Below, piece by piece: positions 21,569 to 26,489 of a stretch of DNA of 64,000 bases. The notes under the pieces were generated by a model that was given only the letters and a program-made list of their open reading frames with translations, was not told the DNA's origin and searched no databases. This stretch comes from Frankineae bacterium MT45 (lineage in GTDB: Bacteria > Actinomycetota > Actinomycetes > Mycobacteriales > Jatrophihabitantaceae). The DNA lies in the NCBI GenBank assembly GCA_900100325.1, contig LT629697.1, forward strand, positions 3,345,423-3,409,422, given 5' to 3'. The position numbers and the translations under genes were made by a program. Position 1 is the stretch's first letter. Each line of letters starts with the position of its first letter.

Positions 21569-21587
21569 GGTCTGACTCGGTCAGACC
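21569..21587 (-). terminator. Palindrome ending the tyrosine operon and leading the DHFR-like gene
   Basis: GGTCTGAC-TCG-GTCAGACC is a perfect 8-bp inverted repeat with a 3-nt loop. It overlaps the stop of the LanC-like gene and lies 18 bp before the start of the next minus-strand gene. It may terminate the upstream operon (no T run follows) or be an operator for the DHFR/VOC pair. Confidence 0.5.
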
Positions 21588-22813
21588 CAGCCTAGGCGAA
21601 GGCCAGCCCGGGGTGCGGCGGTCGGCTTCAGGTTCTGCACGGCGTTAAGCTGCGCGAGCCAGCCGGCGATACCGCTGGCCCCCTGCATGAACCCCGGTTC
21701 GGGCGGTAATTGCGAGGGATTCCGGGCATGTTCGGTGTTGGACCAGTTGACCCCACCTTCAGTGATGTTGGCTCGGGCCTGCACGTCCGCGGCCAGCACC
21801 TCGGTCCACTCCAGCAGTGCCGCGTCGCCGGTCGCCTGGTAGCGCTCGAGGAGCAACTGGCCGACACCGGCCGTCCCGCAGCAGCGCGCCAGGTTGTCCC
21901 AGTAGCCGGGGTAGAGGCGCGCCGGGAGCTCGCTGGCGCGCAGCGCCTGCAGACAGGCTGCGATCGCCTCCTGCCAACGCGGCTGCGGGTCCACCTCGTT
22001 GAGGGCCAGGAAAAGACGGATGGTTCCGGTCGGGCCGTGGCACCAGCCGTAGAAGACGGCCGGACGGTGCAGCTGCCTGGGGATGCTCAGCGGCAGCGCC
22101 CAGCCGTCGGGCGTCTGCCCGAGGTGCAGCAACTCCTCGGCACCCCGGATCGCCACCGCCAGCAGATCGTCTCGCTGCAGCCGGCGCCCCGCGGCCACCA
22201 ACGCGTAGGCGACTCCGGCGGTCCCGTGCGAGAAGCCGGGCATCAGGTGCTCCCACTCCGGCCCCATCCGCCACTGCACGCCGACGGCGGCGGGCTCGGC
22301 CGCGGTCACCAATCGATCGGCCAGCAGGTGTGCGGCCTCGCACGACGACGCCGTGTCGGCGGCCAACAGGGTGAGCAGCGTTCCAGCGTCCCCGGAGATG
22401 ATGTCCGGGCCATTCTCAGACCGCTCACCCCCGCGCAGAACTCGCTGAGCCAGCTGCCCGGTCACCTCCTCGGCCGCGGCCAGCGCCTCGCCGTCGTCGG
22501 CCACCTCAGCCCAGGCCCGTAGCGCCGGCGGCACACCACCCCAGCCGGAGAAGAGTCCGTCGTCGGCGAGGGCCGCCGTTCCCGGGTTCGCCGCGAGGTG
22601 ACGCAGCCTCCCGGCCGCGTCTACCGCAATGTCATGGACGTCCAGCCCAGCGGAGGCCGCCTGGGCGCAGCCGAGGAGAACCCCCGCCGTTCCGGAGTAG
22701 AGATCGTCGAAGGGCTCCCCCTCCTCCGACCAGGACGAGCCACCGGGAGCCTGCACCGCGACCGAGCGGATCCAGTCGAAGGCCCCCCGGACCAGTTCGC
22801 TTCGGGCCTCCAC
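21581..22813 (-). CDS. LanC-like zinc protein encoded in the tyrosine-catabolic operon
   Basis: 410 aa, GTG start at 22813 only 9 bp after the fahA stop; its ribosome site TAGGAG overlaps that stop. The alpha/alpha-barrel of lanthionine cyclases is visible as repeated Gly motifs: YSGTAG (40), GFSHGTAG (193), GWCHGPTG (256), CCGTAG (311), GFMQGASG (374). Cys258, Cys311 and Cys312 would hold zinc (the classical Cys-Cys-His becomes three Cys), and His196 matches the catalytic His. LanC proteins activate thiols for addition to a double bond. No lanthipeptide precursor or dehydratase is near, so a cyclase role is unlikely. See findings for its possible link to maleylacetoacetate. Confidence 0.85.
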   Translation of the reverse strand: MEARSELVRGAFDWIRSVAVQAPGGSSWSEEGEPFDDLYSGTAGVLLGCAQAASAGLDVHDIAVDAAGRLRHLAANPGTAALADDGLFSGWGGVPPALRAWAEVADDGEALAAAEEVTGQLAQRVLRGGERSENGPDIISGDAGTLLTLLAADTASSCEAAHLLADRLVTAAEPAAVGVQWRMGPEWEHLMPGFSHGTAGVAYALVAAGRRLQRDDLLAVAIRGAEELLHLGQTPDGWALPLSIPRQLHRPAVFYGWCHGPTGTIRLFLALNEVDPQPRWQEAIAACLQALRASELPARLYPGYWDNLARCCGTAGVGQLLLERYQATGDAALLEWTEVLAADVQARANITEGGVNWSNTEHARNPSQLPPEPGFMQGASGIAGWLAQLNAVQNLKPTAAPRAGLRLGWV

Positions 22814-22822
22814 GTCGCTCTC

Positions 22823-24013: not shown

Positions 24014-25233
24014 CGATTCTGCCCGTGCCGGTACCAGGACCAGGCGTACTCACCGTCGTCGCAGGCCTGCGCCCCCTCGCCGAGGCGCAGCGGACGGAAC
24101 GTATCGACCATCACGGCCAGTTCGTCGAAGTACTGGACGCCGATCGAGCGCTCATAGGCGCCGGGCTGAGGGCCGTGCGAATGGCCGCCCGGATGCAGGC
24201 TCACCGACCCCTGGCCGATCCCCGAGCCCTTCCGTGCCTCGTAGTCCCCGCCGCAGTAGAACATCACTTCGTCGGAGTCGACGTTGGAGTGGTAGTAGGG
24301 AACGGGGATCGAGAGCGGGTGATAGTCAACCTTTCGCGGGACAAAGTTGCAGATGACGAAGTTCTGCCCCTCGAAGACCTGATGTACCGGTGGCGGTTGG
24401 TGTACGCGTCCGGTGATCGGCTCGAAGTCGGCGACGTTGAACGTGTACGGATAGAGGCAGCCGTCCCACCCGACCACGTCGAAGGGGTGCTCCGGTACGA
24501 CGTGGATGCTGCCGGCGATCCCACCCGCCCCGCTGCCGCGATGCTTCAGGCACACCTCGACGCTGCTACCGTCGCGCTGCTGCAGCTCACCGGGCCCATG
24601 CAGGTCCCGCTCACAGAAGGGTGAATGCTCCAGTAATTGCCCGTACTTGGAGAGATAGCGATGAGCCGGGGCGATATGCGAGTTCGCCTCGATGCAGTAC
24701 GCCCGCACCGGCTCGCCAGCCGGAATCCAGCGATGCGTGGTGGAGCGCGGGATCAGCACGTAGTCGCCGGAGCGGAACGAAAGGGGGCCGAAGACGGTCT
24801 CGACCACACCCGCGCCGGACTCGACGTAGATGCATTCGTCGCCGATCCCGTTGCGATACAAGGGAGATTCGGCGCCGGCCACCACGTAGCTGATGCGCAC
24901 ATCATCGTTGGCCAGCACCAGCCGTCGCCCGGTCACGACGTCGACCGCGGGACCACCGGCGGCATCGGCAGGCGCGGCCGGCGCCGTGAAGAGGTCGGGG
25001 AGGCGCAGGTGGCGGGGCAACAGCGGCTCGTTCGGCACGGTGCTCTGATCCGGGAGCGTCCAGGGGCGCGCGTCGACCAGCGCCGACGGGATGGCCCGGT
25101 GATACAGCAGCGACGAGTCGGAGGAGAACCCCTCCTCCCCCATCAACTCCTCGTAGTAGAGCGCGCCACTTTCACTGCGGTGCTGGGTATGCCGTTTCGG
25201 TGGTATCGAGCCGCGGGTCTGATAGTGCGCCAT
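24010..25233 (-). CDS. hmgA: Homogentisate 1,2-dioxygenase
   Basis: 407 aa. HYQTRGSIPPKRHTQH at the start, GDYVLIPRSTTHRW, and the C-terminal HPGGHSHGPQPGAYERSIG segment with the His/Glu iron ligands mark the cupin dioxygenase that opens homogentisate to maleylacetoacetate using Fe(II) and O2. It lies 41 bp after hpd and overlaps fahA by 4 bp. Shorter by a few tens of residues than the human enzyme, as usual for the actinobacterial form. Confidence 0.95.
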   Translation of the reverse strand: MAHYQTRGSIPPKRHTQHRSESGALYYEELMGEEGFSSDSSLLYHRAIPSALVDARPWTLPDQSTVPNEPLLPRHLRLPDLFTAPAAPADAAGGPAVDVVTGRRLVLANDDVRISYVVAGAESPLYRNGIGDECIYVESGAGVVETVFGPLSFRSGDYVLIPRSTTHRWIPAGEPVRAYCIEANSHIAPAHRYLSKYGQLLEHSPFCERDLHGPGELQQRDGSSVEVCLKHRGSGAGGIAGSIHVVPEHPFDVVGWDGCLYPYTFNVADFEPITGRVHQPPPVHQVFEGQNFVICNFVPRKVDYHPLSIPVPYYHSNVDSDEVMFYCGGDYEARKGSGIGQGSVSLHPGGHSHGPQPGAYERSIGVQYFDELAVMVDTFRPLRLGEGAQACDDGEYAWSWYRHGQNR

Positions 25234-25274
25234 TGCCTCGTCCCATCTGCTCAGCTGGTTGCTGCGTCATGGTT

Positions 25275-26489
25275 CTAGAAATTGCCGCGTAGTTCCTGTT
25301 CACGCTCGATGGCTTCGAAGAGCGCCTTGAAGTTTCCCTTGCCGAATCCGAGTGAACCATGTCGTTCGATGAACTCGAAGAAGACCGTCGGGCGGTCACC
25401 GATAGGTTTGGTGAAGATCTGCAGCAGGTATCCGTCCTCGTCCCGGTCGACCAGGATGCTGCGCCGCTGAAGTTCGGCGATCGGGACGCGCACCTCACCG
25501 ATTCGGGCCCGCAGTTCCGGATCCTCGTAGTAGGTGGCGGGGGTAGCCAGGAACTCCACTCCCCGGGCCACCAGCGCGTCGACGGTGGCCAGCAGATCGT
25601 TGGTGGCCAGGGCGACGTGCTGAGCCCCGGGCCCGTCGAAGAACTCGAGGTACTCGTCGATCTGGCTGCGCTTCTTCCCGACCGCCGGCTCATTGAGGGG
25701 GAACTTGACCCGGTGGTTGCCGCTGGCCACGACCTTGCTCATCAGGGCCGAGTAGTCGGTGGCGATGTCGTCTCCGACGAATTCGGCCATATTCGTAAAG
25801 CCCATCACCCGGTTGTAGAAGTCGACCCAGCGGTCCATCTGCCCGAGCTCGACGTTGCCGACGACGTGGTCGATGGCCTGAAAGAAGCGCTTCGGCTCGC
25901 TGCTCTCCTTGCTGACTGACGAGGTCCGGGCGACGAAGCCCGGTAGATAAGGGCCGCTGTAGCGCGAACGGTCGACCAGCGAGTGGCGCAGGTCGCCGTA
26001 GGCGCCGATGACGGCGACCCGTACCGTGCCGTGTTCGTCGCTGACATCGTGCGGCTCGGCCAGGATCACCGCCCCCTGAGCGCGGGCGTGCTCGACGCAG
26101 CGATCGACGTCCGGTACCTGCAGCGCGATGTCACTGATTCCGTCACCGTGCTTGGCGTGTACCGCGACCAGCGGGCTGGAGGGTTCGACGGCGCCGGAGA
26201 CCACGAAGCGGGCGGCGCCGCTCTTGAGGACGTAGGAGTGGCGATCACGCACGCCCGTCTCGGGTCCGGCGTAGGCGACCAGTTCCATCCCGTAGACGAC
26301 CTGGTACCAGAGGGCGGCCTGGGTGGCGTTTCCGACGACCCACTCCAGCGCGTCCCAGCCGTTGATCGGGAACGGGTCGGCCGAGGCGTCATAGTCGACG
26401 AGCCCCACCAGTTCCTTCAGTTGGTCCAGACTCAGGTGAGCCAGCCGCTCCGAATCGGTGAGGGCGGTGAGGGGGTGGGCGACGGACAT
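25275..26489 (-). CDS. hpd: 4-Hydroxyphenylpyruvate dioxygenase
   Basis: 404 aa with GGAGG before the ATG at 26489. Two VOC-type domains; the C-terminal one carries the iron site ([22 protein letters not shown], and [26 protein letters not shown]). Converts 4-hydroxyphenylpyruvate to homogentisate with Fe(II) and O2. First gene of the operon; the divergent Lrp/AsnC gene 178 bp away is the likely regulator. Confidence 0.96.

Follow-up and report, generated by a model that had tools for sequence, protein, structure and literature searches.

The breakdown of tyrosine via homogentisate requires a cis–trans isomerase, and the textbook enzyme for this step is the GST-zeta isomerase. The DNA analysed here, hereafter the window, is a stretch of 64,000 nucleotides from Frankineae bacterium MT45 (contig LT629697.1, positions 3,345,423 to 3,409,422), in which three genes of this pathway are followed by a fourth, lanC, that encodes a LanC-like protein, P0001:

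25275-26489, (-) strand: hpd, 4-hydroxyphenylpyruvate dioxygenase (TIGR01263, 411.9 bits, cut-off 277)
24010-25233, (-) strand: hmgA, homogentisate 1,2-dioxygenase of a divergent actinobacterial type (PF04209 and PF20510, above cut-offs)
22823-24013, (-) strand: fahA, fumarylacetoacetase (TIGR01266, 394.9 bits, cut-off 375.3)
21581-22813, (-) strand: stand-alone LanC-like gene (P0001, 410 amino acids, GTG start; PF05147, 108.5 bits, cut-off 23.2)

The four genes are co-oriented with successive gaps of 41, -4 and 9 bp, and both coordinates and profile matches confirm this arrangement, which had been described in the initial annotation. lanC is probably co-transcribed with the operon. HmgA scores 54.8 bits against TIGR01015, under the cut-off of 510.75, which marks it as a divergent member; its identity to frames labelled HmgA near the corresponding loci of relatives is ~58-87%.

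The LanC-like protein P0001

Judged by its sequence, P0001 is a genuine stand-alone LanC-like protein. The PF05147 match covers residues 36-391 and was the sole one (E <= 0.001) in a profile search of the 4.23 Mb single-contig genome. The best profile matches in the PDB were 8car (E 2.6e-10) and then LanCL2 (6wq1, E 4.9e-7). In the alignment with LanCL2, His196 falls on the HG motif and Cys258-His259 on WCHG, and the RCCG of P0001 aligns with ICHG of LanCL2 (Cys for His) and with QCCG of 8car. Three sites are invariant in six of six aligned homologues:

22226-22228, (-) strand: His196, where LanC enzymes have their catalytic acid (LanCL1 His219)
22037-22042, (-) strand: Cys258-His259 (WCHG), a presumed zinc ligand and the position of LanCL1 His277
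21878-21883, (-) strand: Cys311-Cys312 (RCCG), the remaining pair of presumed zinc ligands

His196 and His259 were equated with LanCL1 His219 and His277 by motif. In a structural study of human LanCL1, His219 is described as protonating the enolate and His277 as activating the carbonyl; most bacterial LanC enzymes carry Tyr at the His277 position, and enzymes of the LanCL1 type add free glutathione between molecules (PMC9934072). By motif, P0001 has the catalytic His together with a His directly following the zinc Cys, and so resembles those enzymes that carry out the intermolecular addition of a free thiol. The zinc ligands of LanC enzymes are two Cys and one His. In the LanCL1 study, they are given as two His and one Cys (PMC9934072). 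The presumed three-Cys set of P0001 differs from either. The eukaryotic LanCL1 and LanCL2 share with P0001 the PF05147 profile, the zinc-site cysteines, the catalytic His, and the His after the first zinc Cys; however, the third ligand of LanCL2 is His, whereas P0001 is a bacterial protein of a tyrosine operon in which the presumed ligand is Cys. P0001 would belong to the zinc enzymes that catalyse thiol addition, for which we infer the metal, the thiol, and the substrate. Its single-sequence model was nearly all-helical and poor, with a predicted local distance difference test score (pLDDT) of 55 and a predicted template-modelling score (pTM) of 0.54.

Between the window genome and a congener, lanC has a non-synonymous divergence (dN) of 0.166 and a synonymous divergence (dS) of 0.753 (dN/dS 0.22), close to the values for fahA in the same pair (dN 0.165, dS 0.845). 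The gene is under purifying selection and is therefore functional.

The family name raises the question of lanthipeptide cyclization, in which P0001 would close thioether rings in the peptide product of a split biosynthetic system. P0001 does match the LanM/LanL/LanKC set in NCBIfam, far under the cut-offs (110.1 of 304, 106.2 of 650, and 55.7 of 575 bits). No LanM, LanL, or LanKC appears to be encoded in the genome, because there is no second LANC-domain match, and the neighbours of lanC are catabolic enzymes. The LanB profile PF04738 was also without a match, yet control genomes equally lacked one, so that this shows little. Altogether, such a function is very improbable.

The isomerisation step and the c4 family

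The initial annotation had reported no GST-zeta isomerase in the window, and this can be extended to the whole genome, where TIGR01262 (maiA) finds no match. In an order sample of 150 genomes, the same profile gave one weak match and none over its cut-off. The lack of a GST-zeta match is therefore the rule in the group and not special to this operon. The GST-zeta enzymes MaiA/HmgC perform the reaction that the operon needs; P0001 has no NCBIfam relation to TIGR01262.

Enzymes of the mycothiol-dependent maleylpyruvate isomerase (MDMPI) family, which have the DinB fold, use a metal and mycothiol for cis–trans isomerisation. The family is distinct from LanC, and the use of metal and mycothiol would be common to both. 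The earlier statement that no MDMPI/DinB-type gene is present holds for the window and fails for the genome, which has ten PF11716 (MDMPI_N) matches, one with an internal stop and none inside the window by coordinates. Of these ten frames, eight have hits to the domain model TIGR03083, with five exceeding the 50-bit cut-off, and none matches a specific maleylpyruvate/maleylacetoacetate isomerase equivalog in NCBIfam. In a figure legend on Streptomyces albidoflavus, an MDMPI-family gene is listed with fumarylacetoacetase and homogentisate dioxygenase genes (PMC11012174), and the family therefore stays a rival for the isomerisation step.

An uncharacterised family of proteins of ~285 amino acids, named c4 here, is a better candidate than LanC for the isomerase of Actinobacteria, and the stronger lead. 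It lies beside fahA in 11 of 20 neighbourhoods of relatives, mostly between hmgA and fahA. In the order sample, 94 of the 150 genomes have a true fahA (E < 1e-90); the c4 profile matches 62 genomes, all within these 94, whereas the 56 without fahA give no match (Fisher p 1.4e-18, uncorrected for kinship). The distance from c4 to fahA is at most 162 bp in 59 of these 62; one locus may serve as an example:

L115:9150-9959, (+) strand: c4

In a further set of 80 named fahA loci, c4 was found at 62, on the same strand and with a gap of 12 to 246 bp, and the pairing persists even where the orientation of hmgA is reversed. In a class sample of 394 genomes, c4 occurs in 123, of which 113 have fahA (E <= 1e-80; p 1.6e-30), and 80 of the 83 c4-fahA pairs with both coordinates listed are adjacent. 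Some results speak against a strict linkage to fahA: ten of the 123 class-sample genomes with c4 have no fahA at E <= 1e-80, and ten order-sample genomes have a second full copy of c4. Ten c4 loci away from fahA, of which seven are second copies and three hold the sole c4, or the sole complete one, of genomes G057, G127, and G018, had an HmgA-like gene in five cases, none in the other five, and fahA in none of the ten. The copies at L207-L214 and L216, from large-genome relatives, lie away from fahA, some near an HmgA-like gene and many, by reading, near cydAB-type genes. Genome G018 has pieces of c4 beside fahA (L065:7314-7624), and a different contig (L215) carries a c4 next to hmgA.

The pairing also occurs on plasmid records. 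A tblastn search of plasmids with c4 returned 23 records, of which 22 label the protein "hypothetical protein" and one has no annotation; 16 matches span at least 80% of the query, and the six Priestia and the Tsukamurella rows span 20% only. In nine regions from such records (L255-L263, including one Priestia and the Tsukamurella record), c4 is directly upstream of fahA in all nine, and the order hmgA-c4-fahA is found in seven. HmgA and FahA in the Rhodococcus and Nonomuraea records were settled by tblastn with the window's HmgA and FahA, as two Rhodococcus records label hmgA a "cupin" protein and the Nonomuraea stretch is without annotation. The hmgA-c4-fahA cassettes on plasmid records are a portable homogentisate pathway. 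They are found in L255, L256, L257, L259, L260, L261, and L263, from Pseudonocardia, Streptomyces, Rhodococcus, and Tsukamurella (at 11.8 Mb, the Nonomuraea record looks like a chromosome); two of the Streptomyces cassettes have CoA transferase genes behind them. Beyond Actinobacteria, Priestia megaterium (Bacillota) has the gene order hppD-c4-fahA-hisC-hmgA, and its protein matches the c4 profile with E 5e-46.

No family in Pfam or NCBIfam accounts convincingly for c4: the two gave a few weak and discordant single-member matches (best E 0.0011 and 0.0025), and a profile comparison with PDB chains gave no match below E 0.6. Its AlphaFold2 model, built from 62 sequences, is of high confidence (pLDDT 95.8, pTM 0.92) and has eight strands in TIM-barrel order. 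Foldseek was unspecific, returning mixed barrels (best E 2e-4). With VIA-align, chains of deoxyribose-phosphate aldolase (DERA, DeoC) ranked top, led by 1n7k_A (Z 15.0, root-mean-square deviation 3.3 A, 199 residues aligned), and other barrels reached 12.0-13.3. The likeness is one of fold and not of sequence, as the DeoC profile of Pfam matches none of the 62 c4 members and hhalign with four actinobacterial DERA sequences gave a probability of 0.5%; sequence homology between c4 and DERA is unsupported.

In the c4 model, E93 lies on strand 4, E119 on strand 5, K141 on strand 6, K173 on strand 7, and C248 after strand 8. All 62 members and all eight plasmid homologues carry K141, E119, R143, H179, N198, R239, and C248; the eight also keep K173 (61 of 62 members) and E93 (60 of 62). 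Strand 6 of DERA bears the Schiff-base lysine, and a further lysine is found on strand 7; the equivalence with the c4 lysines is inferred from strand order. Where c4 shows KxRTG and FKxTAG, the actinobacterial DERA sequences analysed show KTSTG and VKLAGG. In the three-gene plasmid cassettes, isomerisation is the sole pathway step without an assigned gene; for this reason, c4 is proposed as the isomerase. The chances appear about even that c4 is a maleylacetoacetate isomerase that would need no free thiol and act via a Schiff base at K141 or via the invariant C248. The family provides a concrete and cheaply testable candidate for the missing step in many Actinobacteria and on plasmids.

Possible roles of P0001 in the operon

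The profile search found no c4 in the window genome or its congener. Our favoured explanation, held tentatively and a little short of an even chance, is that LanC was captured by this one genus as a zinc thiol-addition enzyme acting on electrophilic pathway intermediates. The gene would have entered the hpd-hmgA-fahA operon in one genus of the Jatrophihabitans family and then been retained by selection. The zinc of P0001 would activate a thiol (mycothiol should be available, MshC, the mycothiol ligase, being over its cut-off in this genome), which would be added across a double bond of some electrophilic intermediate in the pathway. If the thiol were released after rotation, maleylacetoacetate would be isomerised; if the adduct were left in place, the result would be detoxification. 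Taken separately, a role as detoxifier is rather doubtful and a role as isomerase is unlikely. The explanation is favoured because the operon is kept in the congener, selection on lanC is like that on fahA, the catalytic residues and MshC are present, maiA and c4 give no match, the genome holds no second LANC-domain match, and LanC tends to occur with fahA in the class sample (kinship uncorrected; counts below). The congener (G001) has the order hpd-hmgA-fahA-lanC-ribD-glyoxalase, and the spacing between fahA and lanC is short in both genomes (9 bp in the window and, by reading, 11 bp at the congener's locus L020).

However, a number of results weigh against this explanation. The linkage is seen in one genus only, in two genomes: among the 150 relatives, LanC matches occur in 17, six of them strong (E below 1e-39), and the full arrangement is found only in the window genome and G001. 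In G003, of the same family, the homologue (50% identical) lies on a different contig beside what reads as a glycerol-3-phosphate-dehydrogenase-like gene, and fahA there has c4 adjoining. LanC occurs at none of the 80 named fahA loci (flanks up to 10 kb, E <= 1e-5). In the class sample, where 50 of 394 genomes have LanC (E <= 1e-10), hpd, hmgA, or fahA was found within the 1.5 kb flanks of only the window's own among 30 LanC loci (none of the other 29), and nine LanC loci with wider flanks have no common neighbouring gene family save LanC. The order sample holds 32 fahA genomes without c4, namely the window genome, the congener, and 30 others; in 28 of these 30, the flanks of fahA contain no c4, no LanC, and no MDMPI gene (five queries). 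Genomes G105 and G111 were left out of the flank set, whose 29th locus is that of the congener, which has LanC; G018, with its c4 pieces at fahA, was counted as a c4 genome. The initial annotation had looked to conservation of the linkage across actinobacterial genomes and had named its absence in relatives as telling against its proposal; conservation extends to one congener and is lacking outside the genus.

These data bear most directly on the idea that P0001 is the genus's mycothiol-dependent maleylacetoacetate isomerase and replaces a lost c4. In its favour, no GST-zeta match exists in the genome, and c4 is missing from both the window genome and its congener, versus its presence in 10 of 20 fahA genomes of the family; lanC directly follows fahA, a mycothiol ligase gene is present, and the reverse (retro-Michael) reaction of LanC enzymes is mentioned in the LanCL1 study (PMC9934072). 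Against it, eight further fahA genomes of the family without c4 show no LanC match (some are incomplete), and the ten MDMPI_N matches outside the window are unassigned alternatives. Across the 201 fahA genomes of the class sample, LanC is moreover independent of c4: of the 113 genomes with c4, 10 have strong LanC and 21 any LanC, against 10 and 23 of the 88 genomes lacking c4 (Fisher p 0.64 for strong LanC, 0.23 for any). With no anticorrelation, LanC as a general replacement of c4 is rejected, and P0001 is no general maleylacetoacetate isomerase for this group. A swap of LanC for c4 in one genus is possible, without support from a general rule, and an isomerase role, which rests on chemistry and one genus, is weakly supported; we consider it an unlikely one. 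The initial proposal of a mycothiol-dependent isomerase or quencher thus retains the catalytic residues, MshC, and the lack of GST-zeta on its side, and is weakened by a linkage confined to one genus and by c4 in the isomerase slot. That protein occupies the step proposed for LanC, but is a TIM barrel with a Lys/Lys/Cys site. It is quite improbable that both hold, i.e., that Actinobacteria and some Bacilli use a DERA-like c4 isomerase and that the window genus lost c4, its step being taken by a mycothiol-using LanC-type zinc enzyme, so that GST-zeta would have been replaced twice by unrelated proteins in one pathway.

The pathway seems to tolerate the loss of c4. This loss is perhaps offset by a thiol-driven non-enzymatic isomerisation, by an MDMPI protein, or by a FahA that accepts the cis isomer. 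Mice deficient in GSTZ reportedly, by the title of one study, have a glutathione-dependent non-enzymatic bypass. An MDMPI isomerase in the slot of c4-less genomes was also considered and found at none of 29 fahA loci with five own-genome queries, which remote members could escape.

Alternatively, lanC may be a passenger, a solo gene of unrelated function that came to lie after fahA in an ancestor of the genus and is transcribed with it for no functional reason; isomerisation would then be carried out by an MDMPI-family protein elsewhere, by a free thiol, or be needless. We regard this as possible although not probable. LanC homologues are solo genes with unrelated neighbours, and the linkage is restricted to one genus; the ten PF11716 matches and the listing in the Streptomyces albidoflavus legend (PMC11012174) would suit an MDMPI isomerase. 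Moreover, the co-oriented run extends past lanC (20628-21550) into two genes that are not known to have a role in the pathway:

20990-21550, (-) strand: RibD_C (dihydrofolate reductase-like reductase) gene, 30 bp past lanC (PF01872, 71.2 bits)
20628-20993, (-) strand: VOC/glyoxalase-fold gene, with a 4 bp overlap with the RibD_C gene (PF00903, 41.9 bits); in the congener (L020), it lies farther from the RibD_C gene than in the window

Against a passenger stand the short spacing in both genomes, the purifying selection, and a chemistry that fits, as well as the co-occurrence of LanC and fahA: in the class sample, fahA is present in 44 of 50 LanC genomes versus 157 of 344 others (p 6e-9) and, for strong LanC (E below 1e-60), in 20 of 23 versus 181 of 371 (p 4e-4), kinship being uncorrected in both comparisons.

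If, in this genus, LanC acts on the same intermediate as that proposed for c4, P0001 would represent a LanC enzyme whose substrate is a small metabolite of catabolism and not a peptide. Among the literature matches listed, from which subscription papers were mostly out of scope, no title or abstract dealt with LanC in tyrosine breakdown or with a c4-like isomerase.

Other genes of the locus

A putative regulatory gene is divergent from hpd:

26602-27192, (+) strand: Lrp/AsnC-type regulator (PF01037, PF13404)

In the congener G001, too, hpd/hppD is preceded by a divergent regulator of this type, and one is found upstream in Priestia (with one intervening gene) and in Tsukamurella. On the other side of the run, the translation of the gene at 18792-20348 reads as two similar GAF-like halves followed by a methyl-accepting chemotaxis-like tail.

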